In this document: piece by piece, positions 7,605 through 29,309 of the stretch
Position numbering within the stretch: position 1 is the stretch's first letter
Layout of the letters: each line of letters begins with the position of its first letter
Virus record (IMG/VR): IMGVR_UViG_3300030329_004084
Coordinates: 1 to 29,358 of that record
Length of the DNA: 29,358 nucleotides
Direction: 5' to 3' (one strand)
Source of the DNA: a virus
Translations under genes and position numbers: made by a program
Notes under the pieces: generated by a model
Databases searched by the model: none
The model's input: the letters and a program-made list of their open reading frames with translations, nothing else
What the model was told of the DNA's origin: nothing

Positions 7605-8010
7605 AAAATTATATGATGCCACGTTGGCGCGCCTGAGAAGTAGGGCCCTGGAGGCTCTGGCCAACCTTGAGCTTAGTCTGGCAAATGCTGATTCAAGTGG
7701 GCCCCCGTTAAATGTTGATTGTATTACGCAGCACGCTGAAGATTTGGCGCGCCTTGAAGGAGCGATAATCACTTTGCAGCAATATTTTTCCACGAATCAG
7801 CCGGCCCAGCCCCCGTCGCCCCCGCCGGCTCCTCTGCCGGCACCAGAAGCAGTTGCTAAAGTTGCCGCAGAGCCTCCGAAAAAAATCACCGAAGAGATGT
7901 CGCCAAGTTATCGAAAGTCTATTGAGGCAGAAAAAAAGCGCCAAAAAGCGGAAGCAGAGCGCATCAAGAAAGAGGCTAAGAACTCTAAGTCTTCCAAAGG
8001 CAAGAAGTGA
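7591..8010 (+). CDS. helical protein with Pro/Ala-rich linker and Lys-rich tail, unknown
   Basis: I recognise no family. The 139-residue protein has three zones: a helical N-terminal part (residues 1-70) with many Leu and Ala, a Pro/Ala-rich flexible linker (about 71-97, PPSPPPAPLPAPEA), and a highly charged Lys/Glu helix ending in a run of Lys and Ser. The basic tail would suit nucleic-acid binding or attachment to an acidic partner (inference). The start overlaps the thioredoxin gene by 14 bases; an in-frame ATG at 7597 would overlap by 8. AAGGAG lies 11 bases before 7591. The stop overlaps the IMPDH start. Confidence 0.6.
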   Translation: MKMNKKLYDATLARLRSRALEALANLELSLANADSSGPPLNVDCITQHAEDLARLEGAIITLQQYFSTNQPAQPPSPPPAPLPAPEAVAKVAAEPPKKITEEMSPSYRKSIEAEKKRQKAEAERIKKEAKNSKSSKGKK

Positions 8011-9026
8011 TGCATCGAACTTATTCTTATGATGATGTTTTGCTGATGCCGCAATATTCCGATATTCGCTCCCGCAGCGAGATTGACATCTCGACCGATT
8101 TGGGCAAGGGCGTAAGGCTTCAGTTACCCATCTTTGCTTCCCCGATGGACACAATATCTGAAGGGGCAATGGGAAGTGCTTTAGCTAAAGTAGGGGCAAT
8201 TGCAATTATTCATCGCTACAACACCATTCAAGAGCAGATGAGAGAAGTCAACAGAGTGGAATCACCAAACATTGTTGGGGCTGCTATCGGCATCTCTGGT
8301 GACTATTTGGAGCGAGCTAGTGCCGTCGTAGATTATGGCGCCGACTTTCTTTGCGTCGATGTTGCGCATGGCCATCACATTATGATGAAAGAAGCGCTGC
8401 ATGAGCTTAGAAAGTTGTTTGGTGACGATTACCACATTATGGCTGGAAACGTTGCCACTCGCCAAGGTATTAATGACCTTGCAGACTGGGGAGCAGACTC
8501 TGTGAGATGCAACATTGGGGGCGGCTCTATTTGTTCTACGCGCATTCAAACAGGTCATGGTCTCCCTGGATGGCAGACGATTGTGGAATGCTCGATGACC
8601 GATAGAGACGTTAAAGTTATTGCCGATGGCGGAATCAAAAACTCTGGCGACATTGTTAAGGCTCTAGCTGCAGGGGCAGACGCCGTGATGGTGGGGTCTT
8701 TGCTCGCAGGAACCACAGAGACACCTGGAGAAATGTTTATGGATTCTCATGGCGCGCGCTGGAAAACCTATAGAGGAATGGCCTCTAAAGAGGCGCAAGT
8801 TGAATGGCGTGGAAAGTATTCATCTTTTGAAGGTGTCGCAACACGCGTTCCTCACCGAGGCTCAGTTCGTGAAATACTTGAGGACTTAGAAAAAGGCATC
8901 CGTTCTGGCTTCTCATACACGGGCGCCCGCAATCTGCGCGAGCTACAAGCTAAGGCGCAGTTTGTCGAACAAACAACGTCAGGCTTATCCGAGAGCCGCA
9001 CCCACATCAATACGAGGAGTTGGTAA
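8010..9026 (+). CDS. guaB: IMP dehydrogenase-like enzyme lacking CBS domains
   Basis: IMPDH oxidises IMP to XMP with NAD+, the committed step to GTP. The barrel is clear in this 338-residue protein: the N-terminal [21 protein letters not shown], the catalytic loop [15 protein letters not shown] with Cys175, [25 protein letters not shown], and the YRGMAS segment. The C-terminal region ([11 protein letters not shown]...[15 protein letters not shown]...TSGLSES) matches IMPDH better than GMP reductase. The two CBS domains that regulate cellular IMPDH (normal length near 490) are absent, which suggests a deregulated enzyme boosting guanine nucleotides. The ATG at 8010 overlaps the previous stop (TGATG); a GTG one codon earlier is less likely. 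GMP reductase is the main alternative. Confidence 0.85.
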
Positions 9027-9678: not shown

Positions 9679-10605
9679 ATGGCCCGTAAGAAACTATTAA
9701 CAGAAGGCGAGATTCGCCAATTTATGAAACTCGCAAATCTGCGTCCTGCCGGCCAGAGGCGCCTTAGCGAAATGTACGATGTGCCTGGCGCGCGAGACGA
9801 AGACGAAGAGCTTCGCGATGAGCTTGGTGCTACCGAGGATGAGCTTGGAGATGAGGATGCTTTAGCTGACGAAGAGGGCGCCGAGCTTGACGACATGGCT
9901 ATGGATGATGCCCCCGGCGGCGATATGGTCTCCATGGATGATTTTATGTCTGCTCTTGAGCGTGCCATCGAAGAAGTCACAGGTGAGGAGGCAGATGTTT
10001 CCGAAGAGCCTGGCGATGAAGAGATAGAAATGGACATGGAAGTGGGCCCCGAAGGCGATGAAATAGAGATGGATGTCGAGGAGGATCCTATGATGGAGGC
10101 GCGCAAGGGCCATGGCGGCGGCGCCCGCAGCGAAGACCCAGAAAAGAATAAGCCCGGCAAGTTTGGTAAGCCCGATGAAGAGAAGCCTGACAAATATGCT
10201 GGTGGCGAAGGCGCCGCTCCCGAAGAAGAGCCAGTTCGCAGAGGTCGCAAGTCTGCTGGTCATCGTCCTGACAAGCAGAATGAAGGCATGGCAGATGCAG
10301 CGCCCGCTCCCCATCGCTCCCCACGTATGCAGCGCAGACGCCGTGACGATGATGATGATGGTCCCGTTGGAGACATTATGACTGGTGATGATTCCGAGAT
10401 GCTGTCGGCAACTGAGTATGATCCATCCGAGGAGATCCCTCGCGCTCAACGTGGCGCTAAAGGTCGCTATCGTCGTGATGAGTCGATTGATGATGTTGTC
10501 AATGAGGTCGCTAAGCGTGTTGCTGTGCGATTACAGAATGAAAACCGCAAGGAACAGATGGTAGATCAGCTTGCTGAGCGCATTATGAAAAGACTCACAA
10601 AGTGA
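9679..10605 (+). CDS. acidic, low-complexity probable virion/prohead protein
   Basis: The 308-residue protein starts MARKKLLTEGEIRQFMKLANLRPAGQ, a pattern I associate with structural proteins of marine T4-like phages (from memory). The middle (about 30-145) is extremely acidic (runs of Asp/Glu with Met and Gly), then a Gly/Pro/Lys-rich region (about 145-215), then Arg-rich and Asp-rich stretches. A helical C-terminus holds DDVVNEVAKRVAVRLQ and LAERIMKRL. The composition fits a prohead core/scaffold or a DNA-mimicking internal protein (inference). LTE-G at residues 7-10 resembles a T4-type prohead protease cleavage site. It has a good AAGGAG ribosome site and is followed by an intrinsic terminator. 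Confidence 0.6.
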   Translation: MARKKLLTEGEIRQFMKLANLRPAGQRRLSEMYDVPGARDEDEELRDELGATEDELGDEDALADEEGAELDDMAMDDAPGGDMVSMDDFMSALERAIEEVTGEEADVSEEPGDEEIEMDMEVGPEGDEIEMDVEEDPMMEARKGHGGGARSEDPEKNKPGKFGKPDEEKPDKYAGGEGAAPEEEPVRRGRKSAGHRPDKQNEGMADAAPAPHRSPRMQRRRRDDDDDGPVGDIMTGDDSEMLSATEYDPSEEIPRAQRGAKGRYRRDESIDDVVNEVAKRVAVRLQNENRKEQMVDQLAERIMKRLTK

Positions 10606-10606
10606 C

Positions 10607-10635
10607 TTGACAAAGTATTTTGTATGTGATACATT
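10607..10635 (+). promoter_or_regulatory. sigma-70 type promoter overlapping a terminator
   Basis: TTGACA (10607-10612), 17 bases, TACATT (10630-10635). The start point would fall near 10642, inside the 5' arm of the terminator hairpin at 10634-10668. The new transcript would lack much of that arm and so escape termination, while transcripts from upstream stop. It would drive the membrane protein and the second ClpP-like gene. Confidence 0.7.
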
Positions 10636-10668
10636 AACCACTGGGGAAACTCAGTGGTTAATTTTTTT
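10634..10668 (+). terminator. Rho-independent terminator
   Basis: A perfect 10-bp inverted repeat, TTAACCACTG (10634-10643) with CAGTGGTTAA (10652-10661), has an 8-base loop and is followed by seven T (10662-10668). It follows the stop of the acidic virion protein gene by 28 bases and should end that transcript. Confidence 0.85.
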
Positions 10669-10680
10669 GGAGTAATTAAG

Positions 10681-11103
10681 ATGGGCCCATGGTGGATTTA
10701 TCTGTTGGTTTTTATATTTGGGTATTTTACTCATAAGACGTTTTATTTCTTTCGTTCATTGAAAATCAGTATTGGACTAATACGCGTGTCGCAACTAATT
10801 AGTCTTGCAGTGTTGGCAAAATCAATTGAAAACCTTTACTATTCCCATACGACAAAAATGAGACAAATGAGAGATAATAACGAAAGCGCTGCGCGCATGA
10901 ATGAGGCGCGCCGCCTATTTAATAACGAGATATCGGAATACAAAAACAAAGCCATTCAAGAAATGATAGACTTACATCCCGCATTTTACGATCCAATTGT
11001 TGATTTTGATGATTGGAAATCTGCAATGTCTTTTTTAGAAGAAAATAAAAAATACATTTTTGAATTTTTAAACCAGGATAAAAATGATAAAAAAACTCCT
11101 TGA
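10681..11103 (+). CDS. small N-terminally membrane-anchored protein, unknown
   Basis: The 140-residue protein starts with a hydrophobic aromatic segment (residues about 3-20, WWIYLLVFIFGYF), probably one membrane anchor, with a second weakly hydrophobic helix at about 33-50. A charged helical domain follows, with a likely coiled-coil stretch (KMRQMRDNNESAARMNEARR) and a Lys-rich end. It would be cytoplasm-facing. The ATG at 10681 is chosen because GGAG (10669-10672) lies 8 bases upstream; an upstream in-frame GTG at 10654 lies inside the terminator hairpin. It is the first gene of the transcript starting near 10642. It overlaps the ClpP-like gene by 20 bases. The function is unknown. Confidence 0.65.
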   Translation: MGPWWIYLLVFIFGYFTHKTFYFFRSLKISIGLIRVSQLISLAVLAKSIENLYYSHTTKMRQMRDNNESAARMNEARRLFNNEISEYKNKAIQEMIDLHPAFYDPIVDFDDWKSAMSFLEENKKYIFEFLNQDKNDKKTP

Positions 11104-11710
11104 TAAACTTAGCTCTGATGAGCAAAAAATTGTCCTTCTAGACCCGGCAGCTTTAGGAGGCTCCGGCGCGCAAGAGCCTGATCTTAGAATAATTGGCATG
11201 TTTTGCGATGTACATGAAGAAAAAGTAGCTGAGATAATACATGCCATGCTTTATCTTAATGAAATGAACAGGCTTCAAAAGAAGCCGGAACTTAAAAGGC
11301 CAATCGAGTTTTACCTATCAACATATGGCGGCAGCGCAGATGACATGTTTGCCCTTTATGATGTAATGAGGACGGTGCGGCAAGAAACAGAGATTCACAC
11401 TTTAGGATTAGGCAAAGTTATGTCTGCCGGCGTGCTGTTGCTAGCCGGCGGCACAAAAGGCAAACGCCGCATTGCGAAGAACTGTCGCGTCATGATCCAC
11501 TCGGTCGCAGCAGGAAATGCTGGTGCCCTGCACGATTTAACGAATGAACTGGAGGCAATCCAAGACCTGCAGGATATGTACACAACCTGTTTGGCCGCAG
11601 AGACAAACATGACAGAAGGCGACATAAAAGATATGCTTAATCGCAACGTTAATGTCTATTTATCTGCGGTAGAGGCGGTTAAACTTGGGATTGCGGATAT
11701 TATTATTTAG
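11084..11710 (+). CDS. ClpP-like protein with Asn in place of catalytic Asp (ClpP paralog 2)
   Basis: ClpP-fold protein of 208 residues. TYGGSADDM (80-88) is the oxyanion region, Ser114 sits in GKVMSAGVLLLAGG, and His139 in RVMIHSVA. At the third triad position, ClpP has Asp in RDxFMSAxEA, but this protein reads VNVYLSAVEA with Asn190, followed by the expected LGIAD. Unless another acid substitutes, activity should be low or altered. Seen together with the intact paralog at 2953, it may form mixed rings, as ClpP and ClpR do in cyanobacteria (established family knowledge; the application here is inference). A capsid-maturation protease is another option. It overlaps the membrane protein gene before it by 20 bases. 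Confidence 0.8.
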   Translation: MIKKLLDKLSSDEQKIVLLDPAALGGSGAQEPDLRIIGMFCDVHEEKVAEIIHAMLYLNEMNRLQKKPELKRPIEFYLSTYGGSADDMFALYDVMRTVRQETEIHTLGLGKVMSAGVLLLAGGTKGKRRIAKNCRVMIHSVAAGNAGALHDLTNELEAIQDLQDMYTTCLAAETNMTEGDIKDMLNRNVNVYLSAVEAVKLGIADIII

Positions 11711-11719
11711 GAAAAACAG

Positions 11720-13447
11720 ATGGCAGATTTAAAAGATATATTGAGAGAGGAATACGTCAAGCAAATCAACAGCCTTGATCTGAAAACACTTCTTGAGATC
11801 GTTGAAGACGTTATGTCTCAACCGTTAACAGTGGCTAATGAAGAAGTTGTGAATCCTGCTACTCTCCAAGGAAAAGATGACACAGCCGCTCTTGAAATGA
11901 TATTAAAAATGATTCCAGACATTGAAGTATCTGAAATCGGCTGGTCAGATGTAAAAACACCGGAGAACCAAGCAGAGATTAAAGGACCGCAACGCCAACT
12001 GCTTGAGGGATATTTGTCCAACATTCAAGGTAATGATTTCGCACAGCGAATTGATAGTGTTTCAAAATTTTACGATAAAGGGTCTTTGATGATTTCAGAG
12101 CAAGCGGGAGAGGACAGAACAAAGCGCATCGTACAAGCCATTTCGTATCTTGTGTTTTATAAAACACTAACAAAAGTAATTACAAATTTTAATGCCTCAT
12201 CAGCAGGTTTTAGTTTTGAGTCTTTTCTAGCTGCGTTGGTAGATGGATACCAGATACCTGCCAATACAGGAACAATCGCGGATTATATTGATAGAGCTAG
12301 TGGTCAAGAAATCCCCGTCAGCTTAAAATTATATCGCGAAGGCGGCTTAGAAGTTGGCGGTAGCTACACTGATCTTGTTAATGATCTCGTTAAGCCTAAA
12401 TATCCTAATTCTATTAACGGCGGGATGAGATACGTTGTCTGTACTAAACAATTGGCTGGCGAGGACCTAGAACAAGAAGGGAAAATTGATTTTTACCAGT
12501 TTGATTTCAATCTTGAAAATGTTTTTGATATTTTGGTAAATTCTAAGGATAAATCTCAGAAATGTATCATGCTGCCGAGAGAAATTGTCAGTGCTCTTTT
12601 GGGGGGCCAACAATCAGGTGTTGATATAAACAAGTCACTTCCAGGGCAGCAAAATCTCCCTAGTGATGAAGAGCTTGAAAAGGTTTTTATTAGCGCACTC
12701 GACCAATTAATTCAGGCTAATGAAATAGTATTGTCCCAACAGCAAGGCGAAGCGCTTAAGCAAGCATTAGATTATGCTAAGAAAGATAATATTTTTCGTG
12801 ATTACATTGCAAAGAAAGGTGACGAGGTACGCAACCTGGGAATTGTTCGCGGTAGGTCATTAATAGACAGAGAATTTGTTAAAAAACTTTTACAAGACTT
12901 TGATTGGTATGGTGGATTAAAAACAGCAAGCGGAAGGTCAGCTCGGCAAACATTACTAAATGCAATTGTAAAAGCGAACGGCGTAATCATCGATCGCCTT
13001 AAGCAATCTAGACTATCTGACGAGCGTAAAGCTGAAATTTCTAGAATGGTTAAAGATGGTGAATTTTTAGATCCACAAGAATCAGCCCGCCAATATAAAA
13101 TGTTAGGACGCGAACAGAAAAAAATTGCTCTTAAAAATAGCTGGGGATATTTATCAACCGGCCACTTCTCGTTAAATCAGAAGCAAGCAACTGCCGAAGG
13201 GGCCCCAACAAATACTAAATTTATTGGCTCAATCATGATCGGGCGCGCGCTAGTCGGCAATGTTGTAAATAGCATTAGAGATATTCTTAATGAAGAAGTG
13301 GCCGAGATTTTTCAATCCCTTAAGATCTTATCCGATAGTCTTAATACTTTCTTTGCCGGCGGCCTAGAGGATGATGGCTTAGCAAAAGCCGCAACTGATA
13401 ACGCACAGAATATCAGCTCAAAAGAAATCTTAAATCCAAACAAATAG
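11720..13447 (+). CDS. large unknown protein with possible PD-(D/E)XK nuclease-like core
   Basis: No family is recognised with certainty in this 575-residue protein. The N-terminus (ADLKDILREEYVKQI) is helical. Around residues 160-205 is a pattern reminiscent of PD-(D/E)XK folds: a helix GFSFESFLAAL with Glu167, then IADYID with Asp188, and a strand VSLKLY with Lys203. The following GGSYTDLVNDLV also fits such folds. The rest is mixed helix and strand, with Gln-rich stretches (LSQQQGEALKQALDYAKK). An Ala/Gly-rich tail (DSLNTFFAGGLEDDGLAKAATDN) ends it. The size and the nearby virion-type genes suggest a structural or DNA-handling protein. The nuclease idea rests on three residues and spacing only. 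The next gene has its own promoter. Confidence 0.5.
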   Translation: MADLKDILREEYVKQINSLDLKTLLEIVEDVMSQPLTVANEEVVNPATLQGKDDTAALEMILKMIPDIEVSEIGWSDVKTPENQAEIKGPQRQLLEGYLSNIQGNDFAQRIDSVSKFYDKGSLMISEQAGEDRTKRIVQAISYLVFYKTLTKVITNFNASSAGFSFESFLAALVDGYQIPANTGTIADYIDRASGQEIPVSLKLYREGGLEVGGSYTDLVNDLVKPKYPNSINGGMRYVVCTKQLAGEDLEQEGKIDFYQFDFNLENVFDILVNSKDKSQKCIMLPREIVSALLGGQQSGVDINKSLPGQQNLPSDEELEKVFISALDQLIQANEIVLSQQQGEALKQALDYAKKDNIFRDYIAKKGDEVRNLGIVRGRSLIDREFVKKLLQDFDWYGGLKTASGRSARQTLLNAIVKANGVIIDRLKQSRLSDERKAEISRMVKDGEFLDPQESARQYKMLGREQKKIALKNSWGYLSTGHFSLNQKQATAEGAPTNTKFIGSIMIGRALVGNVVNSIRDILNEEVAEIFQSLKILSDSLNTFFAGGLEDDGLAKAATDNAQNISSKEILNPNK

Positions 13448-17399: not shown

Positions 17400-20300
17400 A
17401 TGGGTTATTCAAGTGATAAATGGTTTAGATACCTTAAAGAAAATGTAAGAATAGATGAGGGAGTCCGAGACATCGGGCTGACCGAAATGATCGCAGACTT
17501 TATCGAGTCTGCGTTATACGATGCGCCCGAGAGTGCAAAGACGTGGATGGGGCACAGGTGGAAGAAAACGCATCTCCACCAGTTTATGGCTGCGGCCCCA
17601 CGCCAGCAGTTTCGGTTCGACACGATAGAGCCGCTACTGTCTGCTCTTGACTATTGGACCGGCGCCGCGAAGCAGGATGACTTAGAGCCTCCCAAGCTTG
17701 ACGTTCAGTTTGAGAGCATTCTGAAAGAAAATGTAGAGTGGAGCGCCGAGAAAGCCGAACGCACCAAGCAAGTGCTCAAGAACATCAACCGAACCATTAA
17801 AGATGATGCTCTGGGCAAGTGGCCGAGAGCATTTAAGAGGGCTGTAAAAAACCTTAGCAAGCTGGGTCTCAAGAGCGAAGTGGTCGAGTTCGTTCAAGAG
17901 GTGCTACAAAACACAGAAGATCGCGCGTGGAAAGCCTTTGAGACACGCTTTCGCGATGTGTTCACGTTCTTAAATCTACATCCAGACAACATCAGAGTTC
18001 TCGCTGAGTATGAGCTTATGGCTGATGCCGACAATAAAGCCGAAGCAGAACTATCAGAGATGGAAGATCCCGATCAGATCCTTCACAAGTTTGATGATGG
18101 CTCGTATTGGTATGATCTACAGGCAGGTTCGTGCGACATTGAAGGCGAGCGAATGGGGCACTGTGGTGCTGGCCAAAGCGGCGGCAATCTTTACTCGCTC
18201 CGCAAGCCCGAAGGCAAGCGCGGCAAGTCTAAGTCGTTCGTGACGCTTGAGGCATCCCAAGATACAGTCTATCAAATCAAAGGCAGAGGCAACAGCGCAC
18301 CCCCCGAAGCCACGTGGAACCACATCGTATGGTTTATAGACAACATGGGCATTGAGACTGTAGAAGAGCAGGGCGAGTACTCCGACAATCCCGAAGACTT
18401 TGAGTATATGAATGAGCATCTTGAAAGGTATACCAACGCAAACTTTGCCGGCAATCGCCAAGCCCGCGTGCACGAACTTGAGAACGAGCTTCAAAATCTT
18501 GGCTACGAACTGGACGGACTTGAGCGTAGCGAAGTGTATTTTGAGATCTCCGACTATGGTGAGGACGAGAACAAAATCTATGTGGATGCGTCAGTTGAGG
18601 CCATTATGGAAATCGATCTTGGCTGGCCAATGTTCTTTGAAACCAAGGGCGGCTACATTGCGATGGATAAACAGGGCAATCCAATCACTGGCTTGCAAAT
18701 GATCCCGACAACTTATAGCCAGCAAAACGATTTCGTGAGAGATGTTGGTATTGATGCTGTGGCTGATGAACTTCCCGGTGAACTTAATCAGATTGATCTT
18801 GAGTTTAAGATGCTACAGGGTGTAGTGCCTGATGATTGGGATTATGCAGCCGAGGGAGATTATCCCGACACAGCACATTTGATTGTTACGATAAACAAGT
18901 CAGAAACCTTTGTAGACGAAGAGCGAGAAGGCGGCAGCAGCGCGGCTTATGAGTGCTCAAACTTCCAACAAGCTGTGCAAGATGATTTCGATGAAGAAGA
19001 CAAGTATAAGCAACACGTCAGGGGCGTCCAGGCAGACCTTCAAGCAGAAGAGTACATGAAGCAGAACGCATACGTTAAAGATATGGACAAGCTCCAAAAG
19101 ATCAATGACCTTAAACATTGGAGCGTTTATGTTGATAGTTCCGAGGCTAAACTTACGTTTCTTGACGAGAACAATGCTGGTCAGGCTACCAACAAGCTGC
19201 CCACAGGACTAGCGCTGCCCACCGAGGTAATGATTTATCGGACTGCTGGCGAGCGAGAGGACCCAAGAAGTGTAATAAGCGCGATGTTTCCCAACATCGG
19301 CTTCAGAAACTTAGAAGAAATCCGAGCCCCGTCGCTAAACTCACAGATGGCAACTCGCCTTAACGATGCCTATGGATCAGCCCAGCGAGCAAAGATGGCT
19401 GCCTCGGGACAAGAGGAGTTTGACTTTGGACCTCAATACGAAGCGAAGCCTGCGATGGAACTTGCGAAAGACATAGAGTTGGTTATTTATCCCAAGATCA
19501 GATACGATGTTAGAGAGCCCAATCGCGTTCCTACGCTTTCGTTCGACTTCTTCTTTCAAATCCGCGTTGGCTTTGATGATAACGTGGAAGAGATCGATCG
19601 CGTGCTGGCTATGGCCGCACACATCAACGACAACCCCACCATCGTGCGTGAGGCTGTGCGAGACATCATAGCAGTGCCGATGAGCGAGCTAAACGATGGT
19701 GTGCAGGCTAGAAAATCAAAATTACTAAACCCTAACACTGCGGTTAGTTACTACAACGAGATGGATAGTAAGTTTGGCGCCTCCGCTGCTGCTGGGAATG
19801 ATGACGATGAGCGCCGTATGCTTATTGCGATGTGGATCCGCGACAACTACGCACAGATGGATGAAATTGAGAAGTTCGTGGCTTACTGGAAATACATCAT
19901 ACCGATGCTGGGTCTTGATGGTCAAGTCTTCCGCATCTTTGGAGCAAACGCAGCCATCAATCCCGACACAGGCGAGCCACGTAACTGGTGGGATCTGGTC
20001 CAGAACGAGCGTCAGCGCCGTGGTGTGGGCTTGGCTGGTAGTTCGCCAGTCAACGAGAGCATCGAAGATCAAATCGCAAGAATAGACGCACTGCTGAATG
20101 AGAAAGAGTCTCCGATTGACTTGCGGATTTATAGGACACAGGTTGGTTGTTCTGTTGATTCCGGTATTGCTGGTGCCGACATGGAGGTAGAGACGCAGAT
20201 TCGCGGCATTGACGGCGTGACAACTGTTAAGTCGCTGGTGGACTCCAAGCGTCCATTAACAGCAAACACAGAGTATGTTGTATACGAGATAAAGTTTGAA

Positions 20301-20861
20301 CTTATGGGAGCCACCAGCAGAAAAGAATATCGCGAGGTAGTCCTTTTTCCCGGCTTGCGACGTATACCGGGCTTAAACATTATTGATTGGACTTCAATAC
20401 ATCGCACTAATGTGCGCGGTACAATCAGGACTGTGCGAGAAAATTATGATGTTTCAAATGTTGCTGGCCTAGGCGGCTCTTTAGCGGCTGTTGCAGGTAG
20501 GGCGCCGACACCGGCAATGCCAACGCCCCGTCCCGCGCTCCAAAAAATGATAGATGATTGGTCTGAAGGTGGCGTACAGCTTTATGATGCGCCAATGAAC
20601 ACTAATTCAATGAGATACACTGTGATGATGCCGGTTGATGAATTGGCCCCTCTCATTAGCGCGACCTATCGTGGCGATCGTAATGATTTTAACGGCAGGT
20701 ATCGTTATTTTATAAAAGACGGCCCACAAAATCCGGTTTATCTTGCCATCGGACAAAATCGTAGAGCGAAAATTACAGGAAACGAAGATTTAGTGTGGTT
20801 CGCTAAAAAATCCGGCTTAGAGGAGTTGCCTGTTTTTATCAGCTACCAGAAGCAGGTATAG
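17400..20861 (+). CDS. 1153-aa multidomain probable virion protein with PcfJ-like segment
   Basis: A very large protein of unknown role. The N-terminal region (1-120) starts GYSSDKWFRYLKENVRIDEG. At about residues 237-330 is a PcfJ-like segment: CDIEGERMGHCGAG, NLYSLR, FVTLEA, YQIKGRGNSAP. The middle is acidic and rich in Asp, Glu and Gln. Near the C-terminus (about 905-990) is a compact alpha/beta domain (MEVETQIRGIDGVTTVKSLV) like small domains I recall from marine T4-like phage structural proteins. The C-terminal 150 residues hold an Ala/Pro linker (PTPAMPTPRP) and another beta-rich domain. LKE-N and IDE-G near the start resemble prohead cleavage sites. The PcfJ name is by motif similarity; the function is not established. 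A frameshifted overlap was looked for and not seen. Confidence 0.6.
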   Translation: MGYSSDKWFRYLKENVRIDEGVRDIGLTEMIADFIESALYDAPESAKTWMGHRWKKTHLHQFMAAAPRQQFRFDTIEPLLSALDYWTGAAKQDDLEPPKLDVQFESILKENVEWSAEKAERTKQVLKNINRTIKDDALGKWPRAFKRAVKNLSKLGLKSEVVEFVQEVLQNTEDRAWKAFETRFRDVFTFLNLHPDNIRVLAEYELMADADNKAEAELSEMEDPDQILHKFDDGSYWYDLQAGSCDIEGERMGHCGAGQSGGNLYSLRKPEGKRGKSKSFVTLEASQDTVYQIKGRGNSAPPEATWNHIVWFIDNMGIETVEEQGEYSDNPEDFEYMNEHLERYTNANFAGNRQARVHELENELQNLGYELDGLERSEVYFEISDYGEDENKIYVDASVEAIMEIDLGWPMFFETKGGYIAMDKQGNPITGLQMIPTTYSQQNDFVRDVGIDAVADELPGELNQIDLEFKMLQGVVPDDWDYAAEGDYPDTAHLIVTINKSETFVDEEREGGSSAAYECSNFQQAVQDDFDEEDKYKQHVRGVQADLQAEEYMKQNAYVKDMDKLQKINDLKHWSVYVDSSEAKLTFLDENNAGQATNKLPTGLALPTEVMIYRTAGEREDPRSVISAMFPNIGFRNLEEIRAPSLNSQMATRLNDAYGSAQRAKMAASGQEEFDFGPQYEAKPAMELAKDIELVIYPKIRYDVREPNRVPTLSFDFFFQIRVGFDDNVEEIDRVLAMAAHINDNPTIVREAVRDIIAVPMSELNDGVQARKSKLLNPNTAVSYYNEMDSKFGASAAAGNDDDERRMLIAMWIRDNYAQMDEIEKFVAYWKYIIPMLGLDGQVFRIFGANAAINPDTGEPRNWWDLVQNERQRRGVGLAGSSPVNESIEDQIARIDALLNEKESPIDLRIYRTQVGCSVDSGIAGADMEVETQIRGIDGVTTVKSLVDSKRPLTANTEYVVYEIKFELMGATSRKEYREVVLFPGLRRIPGLNIIDWTSIHRTNVRGTIRTVRENYDVSNVAGLGGSLAAVAGRAPTPAMPTPRPALQKMIDDWSEGGVQLYDAPMNTNSMRYTVMMPVDELAPLISATYRGDRNDFNGRYRYFIKDGPQNPVYLAIGQNRRAKITGNEDLVWFAKKSGLEELPVFISYQKQV

Positions 20862-28092: not shown

Positions 28093-28121
28093 TTGACAAT
28101 ATGATCGCCAGATGATATATT
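28093..28121 (+). promoter_or_regulatory. sigma-70 type promoter of the tRNA array
   Basis: TTGACA (28093-28098), 17 bases, TATATT (28116-28121), ending 12 bases before tRNA-Leu. The start would be near 28128. It probably drives the tRNA-Leu, Lys, structured RNA, CAT tRNA and Arg array with the small genes between. Confidence 0.8.
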
Positions 28122-28133
28122 AAGAGCATGAAT

Positions 28134-28219
28134 GGGAGAGTGGTGGAATGGTAGACACAGGAGACTTAAAATCTTCTGCTCTGAAGAGCGTGCGGGTTCG
28201 ACTCCCGCCTCTCCTACCA
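28134..28219 (+). tRNA. tRNA-Leu (TAA)
   Basis: 86 nt including an encoded CCA. The 7-bp acceptor stem GGGAGAG pairs with CTCTCCT (one G-U at position 1), the discriminator is A, the anticodon loop CTTAAAA gives anticodon TAA (28167-28169), the T-arm is GCGGG-TTCGACT-CCCGC, and a long variable arm (GCTC-TGAA-GAGC core) is present as in class II tRNAs. It reads UUA (and UUG by wobble). Confidence 0.95.
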
Positions 28220-28255
28220 GTTACAGAGCATCGAGAGCATTACGAAAAGCCAGCA

Positions 28256-28348
28256 ATGGTTGAAGAGTTGGTCAAGTTGAATGATTTGGAGGTATTCGTT
28301 TATACTTATAAAGGAGAGCTTGTAAATATCAAGTCCCGATGGAGATAG
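28256..28348 (+). CDS. possible 30-aa small protein
   Basis: A short frame starting at ATG 28256 (MVEELVKLNDLEVFVYTYKG then ELVNIKSRWR) sits between tRNA-Leu and the next gene. Its stop lies 2 bases before the ATG at 28351, so the two could be translated together. There is only a weak ribosome site (GAAAAG). A longer reading of the same frame starts inside the tRNA and is rejected. It may be non-coding spacer. Confidence 0.3.
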   Translation: MVEELVKLNDLEVFVYTYKGELVNIKSRWR

Positions 28349-28350
28349 AA

Positions 28351-28554
28351 ATGAATACAAGAGATATGTGGGAGAATCAGGTGGAGTTGCTAACGCGACA
28401 GTGCCAGAGAATGACCCGAAAGATTGACGAGTTAGAACAGAGATTGCATTATTTTGAAGGAGTTGTCGCGACCTTATTGGTTGCGCTTAAAGAAGGGGGT
28501 GTGATAGTTGACAGCAGCGAGAAAGACGCTGATGCAACTGAATACGAGTTTTAA
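28351..28554 (+). CDS. small coiled-coil protein, unknown
   Basis: The 67-residue protein has a long helix with heptad spacing (LLTRQCQRMTRKIDELEQRL, about residues 11-30), a hydrophobic stretch (GVVATLLVALKEGGVIV, about 36-52) and an acidic tail. It could be a coiled-coil dimer or a peripheral membrane protein. The ATG at 28351 is chosen because GGAG lies 6 bases before it; an ATG four codons earlier lacks a ribosome site. Its stop overlaps the next start (TAATG). It sits between tRNA genes. No family is recognised. Confidence 0.6.
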   Translation: MNTRDMWENQVELLTRQCQRMTRKIDELEQRLHYFEGVVATLLVALKEGGVIVDSSEKDADATEYEF

Positions 28555-28778
28555 TGGCGCGTGTTCAAAAGTGCGGGGGATTTCAGGTCGGTCAACTTGT
28601 CCGTATTCTGGGTGTTCCCGATGCTGTTGGGCTTGTGCTGGCAATCGAAACCATGTATCATAGCATGAGCGAGTATCATGTTTGTTGGATACAAGTTTTG
28701 TGGTCGGATCTTGGCCCTCCCGCCAACTGGGAGCGCGCTGAGTGGCTCCGACATAGCGACGAAAATATAGATTTATAA
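28554..28778 (+). CDS. small SH3/KOW-like protein, unknown
   Basis: The 74-residue protein has FQVGQLVRILGVPDAVGLVLAIE near its start (with the G-Q-L-V and G-L-V strands; quoted as positions about 9-31), then YHVCWIQVLWSD, and ANWERAEWL at the end. This is the clearest SH3/KOW-like pattern of the set. It ends 2 bases before tRNA-Lys, so it is carried in the tRNA transcript. No catalytic residues are evident. Confidence 0.62.
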   Translation: MARVQKCGGFQVGQLVRILGVPDAVGLVLAIETMYHSMSEYHVCWIQVLWSDLGPPANWERAEWLRHSDENIDL

Positions 28779-28780
28779 AT

Positions 28781-28856
28781 GGGTCCATAGCTCAACTGGT
28801 AGAGCATCGGACTTTTAATCCGCAGGTTCTGGGTTCGAGTCCCAGTGGACCCACCA
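28781..28856 (+). tRNA. tRNA-Lys (TTT)
   Basis: 76 nt including an encoded CCA. The acceptor GGGTCCA pairs with TGGACCC, the anticodon loop CTTTTAA gives TTT (28814-28816), and the T-arm is CTGGG-TTCGAGT-CCCAG. It reads AAA/AAG. The gene follows the stop codon of the preceding small gene by 2 bases. Confidence 0.96.
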
Positions 28857-28860
28857 TTTT

Positions 28861-28981
28861 ATGATTTCAGTGACAGGTGAGAACCCTGGCCCCTGAAGTT
28901 TCAAGCCCCTCTTGCGAGGGTGGCGGAAAACAATGATAGCTGAACCATTGATCTTCGCAGTGACGAAGACGCTGAAATCAT
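28861..28981 (+). ncRNA. 121-nt structured RNA between tRNA genes (unknown class)
   Basis: The ends form a perfect 10-bp helix: ATGATTTCAG (28861-28870) with CTGAAATCAT (28972-28981). It encloses four hairpins: CAGG/CCTG (28874-28877 with 28885-28888), CCCTC/GAGGG (28907-28911 with 28916-28920, 4-base loop), CAATG/CATTG (28931-28935 with 28946-28950), and TCTTCG/CGAAGA (28952-28957 with 28964-28969). CAGTGAC occurs twice, in the first junction and in the last loop. It begins 4 bases after tRNA-Lys and is followed by CTTTTTT. There is no reading frame of note. T4 encodes small stable RNAs C and D of similar size in its tRNA cluster (established); this is a possible functional analogue. It does not match the hammerhead core and I know no family for it. 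Confidence 0.6.
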
Positions 28982-28993
28982 CTTTTTTACATA

Positions 28994-29070
28994 GGGCTCT
29001 TAGCTCAGTTGGTCAGAGCACTCGGCTCATAACCGAATGGTCGTAGGTTCAAGTCCTACAGGGCCCACCA
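28994..29070 (+). tRNA. tRNA with CAT anticodon, probably tRNA-Ile2 (AUA)
   Basis: 77 nt including an encoded CCA. The acceptor GGGCTCT pairs with AGGGCCC, anticodon CAT is at 29028-29030, and the T-arm is GTAGG-TTCAAGT-CCTAC. CAT can mean Met, fMet or Ile2. An initiator is excluded because position 1 pairs. The C4-G69 pair and the 3' half (GGTTCAAGTCC...CAGGGCCCACCA) resemble bacterial Ile2 tRNAs, whose C34 is changed to lysidine by TilS, more than elongator Met. The rest of the array reads A-ending codons, which also favours AUA. Confidence 0.9.
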
Positions 29071-29087: not shown

Positions 29088-29309
29088 ATGTTGCCTTATA
29101 CAGCAATCTATCAAAATGCCATCGGCAAAATCACACGCTACACCGCACAAGCATCTAACGATCGCGCTAAAGCATGGAAACAGTTGAGCGATATGAAAGA
29201 AAGTGACGGCGAATGTTTGATTTTGCTTGTACCGGGGGATCATCCTGTGATACAATATGAAGACACGCTGGAGAATAGACAGGTCGATTTGTTTGATAAC
29301 ATGCCCTGA
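29088..29309 (+). CDS. small unknown protein whose stop lies inside the next tRNA gene
   Basis: The 73-residue protein begins MLPYTAIYQNAIGKITRYTA, then a helix (NDRAKAWKQLSDMKE), a strand (ECLILLVPGDHPV) and an acidic tail (DTLENRQVDLFDNMP). No family is recognised. AGGAG lies 5 bases before the ATG, so this start is well supported, while an upstream in-frame GTG lies inside the CAT tRNA. Its stop TGA (29307-29309) is within the acceptor stem of tRNA-Arg, so translation and tRNA processing of one transcript would compete. Confidence 0.65.
   Translation: MLPYTAIYQNAIGKITRYTAQASNDRAKAWKQLSDMKESDGECLILLVPGDHPVIQYEDTLENRQVDLFDNMP

Follow-up and report, generated by a model that had tools for sequence, protein, structure and literature searches.

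What is the self-complementary element of 121 nt (28861..28981, + strand) that sits between two tRNA genes of a marine phage: a non-coding RNA, a mobile piece of DNA or an insert without function? We studied it in a window of 29,358 nt, i.e., the whole stretch of DNA that was analysed, which comes from a 36,490-bp IMG/VR virus record. The record encodes a DnaE-type DNA polymerase, a ClpP/head-maturation-protease-like protein, GroEL and an IMPDH/GMP-reductase-like protein, and the annotated phages closest to it are remote. The gene of the IMPDH/GMP-reductase-like protein (8007-9026) is common to at least 571 viral stretches and is a good marker for the phage group. A protein of 1153 residues (17400-20861) had no phage relative (tblastn, INPHARED) and no match in PHROGs.

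The tRNA array and the insertion site

The tRNA array begins at 28134 on the + strand and comprises tRNA-Leu(taa), tRNA-Lys(ttt), a CAT tRNA, a split Arg(tct)-like tRNA at 29303, and tRNA-Ile(tat), which lies outside the window. The Arg(tct)-like gene at the window's end (29307-29383 of the record; L003:9308-9384) has a run of ten N inside. A promoter-like site with a TG extension (TTGACA-17-TATATT, 28093..28121, + strand, 11/12 matches) is found 12 nt upstream of tRNA-Leu, on the same strand as the element, and its TTGACAAT is kept in two relatives (L005 and L142). The element starts 4 nt after the end of tRNA-Lys(ttt) (28781..28856, + strand), which has an encoded CCA, and its closing helix ends 12 nt before the CAT tRNA, called as tRNA-Met (28994..29070, + strand). 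Across 10 nt, the two arms (28861-28870 and 28972-28981) show 100% complementarity, in agreement with the position and the perfect 10-bp helix given by the initial annotation. Neither ARAGORN nor Rfam matched the element to a tRNA or tmRNA.

Taken alone, the closing helix and the single-sequence fold are weak evidence, because similar inverted repeats exist at two other sites of the record and the folding z-score is modest. The region 28861-28981 has a minimum free energy of -39.5 kcal/mol (z -2.62), a value that 4 of 200 shuffled sequences equalled, and 7 of the 273 GC-matched windows of 121 nt fold as well as the element. Perfect 10-nt inverted repeats with a loop of 40-130 nt occur in three places of the record, the element's included. 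What raises the element above chance is the combination of a homologue in a distant phage (L044, see below) with empty sites in two relatives.

These two close relatives share an empty site that can be summarized as CCACCATTTT|ACATAGGG or, in the form used for the feature, CCCACCATTTT|ACATAGGG (L005, 13760-13778, and L049), with flanks that are identical or nearly so. In L005 (IMGVR_UViG_3300025131_000195), which is syntenic to the window at a DNA identity of about 73%, the gap between tRNA-Lys and the CAT tRNA is just 10 nt (CCCACCATTTT|ACATAGGGG). The corresponding site of L049 (IMGVR_UViG_3300030329_003264) reads CCCACCATTTT|ACATAGGGCTCTTAGC and matches both flanks of the window identically, and the two tRNA genes are likewise adjacent in L047. 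Hence, the empty sites in L005 and L049 delimit a clean insertion of 128 nt (28861..28988, + strand), whose boundaries may shift across as many as 4 T, such that 28857-28984 is equivalent. Two more distant relatives (L004 and L133) have a short open reading frame between the same tRNA genes. Since the junction is empty, element-bearing or ORF-bearing depending on the relative, it seems to be a site where small cassettes come and go. At 28221-28780 and its equivalents in L004, L005, L133 and L142, the intervals between tRNA genes carry small ORFs that differ from one relative to another, which suggests that the array as a whole acts as a hotspot for small cassettes.

An insertion bounded by inverted repeats and matched by empty sites is also what one would expect of a mobile DNA element that is not autonomous (MITE-like or with hairpin ends): a transposase or homing enzyme, provided in trans, would recognise its 10-bp terminal inverted repeats. 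The fold would then matter chiefly as DNA ends. We regard this as the main rival to an RNA gene, though an unlikely one: the insertion lacks a proper target-site duplication, having a T-run only, and a CTTTTTT separates the repeat from the flank.

A homologue in the tRNA region of a distant phage

To find other copies, we scanned IMG/VR with a pattern fixing the arms of the closing helix (P1) alone, TGATTTCAG-N(85-115)-CTGAAATCA, which returned 40 stretches. One of them is a copy at 11263-11382 of IMGVR_UViG_3300008050_000431 (L044), 73% identical to the element across the full 121 nt; the other 39 are chance occurrences, the majority resembling coding DNA, with interiors that do not match. 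Further patterns searched in viral contigs (exact 30-mer and internal patterns, and one fixing the loops and leaving the stems free) gave L044 alone or nothing. Altogether, the pattern scans covered 2.9 million viral contigs and, in one scan, 257 billion bases of genomes, collections in which the window's own record and its close copies may be masked, and they revealed one other copy, that of L044. The sole match in genome contigs, in Anaerovibrio (L131), is attributable to chance (9.8 bits). The element had no blastn match in phage and plasmid collections, no further copy turned up among 50 records of related phages or at 80 loci sharing the GMP-reductase-like gene, and a model search with filters off detected none in the tRNA clusters of other relatives. 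Both the window record and L044, which are genome fragments, have the element in single copy. One copy per record, with a single other copy among so many contigs and genomes, fits poorly with a MITE-like element; the rarity would suit a chance self-complementary insert without function, spread by horizontal transfer.

The phage of L044 is distant, its GMP-reductase-like protein being 55% identical, and the two copies lie in dissimilar surroundings. The change of locus is compatible with a mobile DNA element and disfavours a role in cis on one shared neighbour gene, since the flanks are unrelated. The L044 copy lies 148 nt past tRNA-Arg(tct) and ahead of tRNA-Asn, on the tRNA strand. It differs from the window copy by 27% overall and by three single-base indels, so there is no conserved reading frame, which rules out a protein-coding element; no ORF spans it in the window either, and the earlier description of the element as non-coding holds.

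The neighbourhood of this second copy has features of its own. Just ahead of it, at 11133-11238, a promoter-like, TG-extended GTGAAA-17-TATAAT precedes a segment of 69 nt that GGAAAC/GUUUCC closes, with a T-run; this stretch has the look of a small RNA gene in its own right. The segment 11383-11690 was considered as a second structured RNA and rejected (z -0.12). The 3' strand of P1 (TGAAATCAT) occurs again 350 nt further downstream (11724-11733), at the start of an ORF; about 0.15 occurrences are expected in the whole L044 contig, both strands counted. The tRNA region also encodes a TilS-like PP-loop ATPase (PF01171, 8564-9184), which might, by modification, make a CAT tRNA read isoleucine codons. 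Finally, an HNH endonuclease with zinc fingers is encoded at 10233-10814, between two tRNA genes. Its proximity to the element, which follows about 450 nt further downstream, counts in favour of a MITE-like origin.

Consensus structure and covariation

The two copies share a consensus fold in which P1, the closing helix of 11 bp, encloses the hairpins P2-P5; this supports the four inner hairpins proposed from the window alone. The 5' strand of P1 (UGAUUUCAGUG, 28862..28872, + strand) pairs with the 3' strand (CGCUGAAAUCA, 28970..28980, + strand), as seen from complementarity and from the consensus, and A28861-U28981 adds a pair in the window copy only. As P1 is the same in both copies, it provides no covariation support, and its sequence may be under constraint. 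P2 (28874..28888, + strand) is CAGG-UGAGAAC-CCUG in the window and CGG-UGAGAAU-CCG in L044, where an A-U pair is missing from both strands together; its 7-nt loop (UGAGAAY) matches the pattern UNNRANN and could be a T-loop. It is followed by a conserved single-stranded linker, CCCCU-AAG (28889..28898, + strand), with 8 of 10 bases the same in L044. P3 (28899..28928, + strand; UUYY[AA]GCC-NNNN-loop-NNNN[GU]GGC-GGAA) covaries, CCUC/GAGG of the window being replaced by UUGC/GCGA, and keeps the bulges AA and GU. P4 (28931..28950, + strand; CAAUG-AUAGCUGAAC-CAUUG) becomes CGGUG/CACCG in L044, with two double compensatory changes, around a conserved loop AUAGCU..AC that contains the palindrome AGCU. 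P5 (28952..28969, + strand) is the most divergent hairpin, having a variable loop with a 1-nt indel, and it also has two double compensatory changes.

Among the 36 consensus pairs, 35 can be compared, the other being the A-U pair of P2 gone from both strands in L044. Twenty-five are the same, 4 changed on one side via G-U, 6 changed on both sides, and none is broken. In other words, all variable pairs (10/10) remain standard pairs. When columns were shuffled within their conservation classes, none of 1000 shuffles was as good as the consensus fold (z -6.2), and for the interior without P1 the figure was 3 of 1000 (z -3.1). Sliding the partners by 1-3 columns brought pairing down from 100% to 40-50%. 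A stricter control, in which pairs were shuffled, did as well as the real alignment in 12 of 500 cases, as expected with two sequences only; with a family of two members, the covariation amounts to one pairwise comparison. The G-U pairs favour pairing on the + strand, on which the model scores 140 bits, against 13 on the - strand.

The initial annotation had suggested seeking compensating base changes at the same tRNA interval of related phages. Such changes were found, although not at that interval, which is empty in L005 and L049: the pairs were compared with L044, at a different site of its tRNA region. They bear on two of the alternatives. In a MITE-like element, P1 strands that stay unchanged while the copies diverge by 27% would be well explained, but conserved interior loops and stems covarying through G-U pairs would not be needed. 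An insert without function would agree with the modest single-sequence z-score. It is hard to reconcile with loops that are conserved and with every variable pair being kept at this divergence, and we consider such a reading already unlikely, with very little probability left to it. The element is thus very probably a real non-coding RNA, judging from the homologue, the consensus fold and the placement on the sense strand of a tRNA array.

A further possibility is that the element regulates the downstream tRNA or gene in cis, as a riboswitch-like element, attenuator or anti-terminator working by re-pairing of P1. The window copy invites this reading, since TTCA/TGAA elements recur five times, GCCCCT occurs twice and CTTTTTT follows the closing helix, all as first described. 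However, only the two P1 strands persist in L044 among the five TTCA/TGAA elements, the first CCCCT alone is kept while the second is replaced by a covarying stem, and the T-run is absent. The proposed switch and the role as terminator therefore lose support, and the consensus scan for terminators did not flag the element. The motif GGUGAGAAYCC of P2 followed by CCCC would count for a cis regulator, as we take it to resemble the P4 region of cobalamin riboswitches. However, cmscan matched neither cobalamin models (window E up to 10, L044 E up to 5) nor another riboswitch, and the genes downstream of the two copies are different. We thus hold cis regulation to be very unlikely.

Comparison with known RNA families and a proposed role

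The covariance search of Rfam (release 15) envisaged at the outset matched neither the element (at the gathering thresholds and to E 10) nor its L044 homologue (to E 5) to any family, and the entries reported at E 10 (mir-557, CRISPR-DR57 and ssnA) are chance matches. Together with the compensatory changes in the homologue and the tRNA-array sense strand, this agrees with the view of the element as a candidate new phage non-coding RNA. It also bears on whether the element could be a self-cleaving ribozyme or a processing element, separating tRNA-Lys from the CAT tRNA by a cut in their precursor. The placement exactly between two tRNAs and the compact core, with several branches and conserved runs of unpaired bases, would be in keeping with a ribozyme. 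Yet the models of hammerhead and other self-cleaving ribozymes in Rfam did not match (window E ≤10, L044 E ≤5), the former as already thought from the lack of a hammerhead core; the L044 copy is not flanked by adjacent tRNAs; and the relatives L005 and L049 manage without the element. This makes a ribozyme or processing element rather improbable.

The closest likeness in setting is with RNA C and RNA D of T4 (species 1 and 2 stable RNAs; 139 and 119 nt, against 121 nt here), whose function is still not known (PMC9697503). The initial annotation's comparison stands as regards kind and setting, i.e., a phage tRNA cluster and the tRNA sense strand, with a large-phage genome as host in T4, but not as regards a sequence link: searching 69.0-75.5 kb of T4 (RNA C/D region) with our model (R1) without filters gave scores at chance level only. 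Moreover, RNA C and D come after the last tRNA, whereas the element is inserted between two and absent in close relatives. GOLLD and ROOL are structured RNAs of phages and prophages, frequently near tRNA islands, and GOLLD env-38, from a marine sample, was found downstream of a Met-tRNA (PMC12286853). They are far larger than the element, GOLLD often exceeding 800 nt and ROOL, with its multiple pseudoknots, also being called large, and their Rfam models matched neither the window nor L044. Hence, despite the similar setting, the element belongs to none of these. The ncRNA candidates from Grad-seq of phiKZ are short, structured RNAs of a large phage, one of them intergenic and about 100 nt long; unlike the element, they are not reported from a tRNA array (PMC8545117), and no similarity was found in the phage collection. 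Marine cyanophages also have structured RNAs, manA and wcaG, of which manA commonly lies in potential 5' UTRs and is thought to be cis-regulatory (PMC2864571); the element has no Rfam match.

We consider it moderately probable that the element encodes a structured non-coding RNA of about 121 nt, the first of a new family, which is carried as a cassette of the tRNA array, co-transcribed with it and acting in trans. Transcription would start from the promoter-like site ahead of tRNA-Leu. Processing of the tRNA-Lys 3' end and of the CAT-tRNA 5' end (by RNase P) would then cut on both sides, as suggested by the start 4 nt past the encoded CCA and by the gap of 12 nt between the helix and the following tRNA. 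This route of release cannot be general, since the L044 copy is 148 nt from the nearest tRNA and past a terminator-like hairpin; the promoter-like site and T-run hairpin between tRNA-Arg and that copy imply that its release differs. Once freed, the RNA would persist in a compact form capped by P1 and offer its conserved runs, the P2 loop UGAGAAY, the CCCCU-AAG linker and the P4 loop AUAGCU..AC, to a partner, either protein or RNA, from the host or the phage. In its setting and size it would work as T4 RNA C and D do, with no homology implied. A bolder version, which we regard as a long shot, is that the two copies are the founding pair of a family of small mobile RNAs in which the piece of DNA that is transferred coincides with the RNA. 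Such a cassette, bounded by its unchanging P1, would move from the tRNA array of one marine phage to that of a distant one, and its compact RNA would act in trans, possibly as a dimer through the AGCU of the P4 loop, on host tRNA metabolism or translation.

Few non-coding RNAs of phages are known, 21 having been counted in 2021 (PMC8545117), and for all those of tRNA regions, T4 RNA C and D, GOLLD and ROOL, a function is still missing. The element adds to them a new RNA family that is small and well delimited, and for which both an exact empty site and a homologue in a distant phage are known. Hence, it is open to synthesis, probing, deletion and searches in marine data, and it would help to ask why the tRNA arrays of large phages gather structured RNAs.
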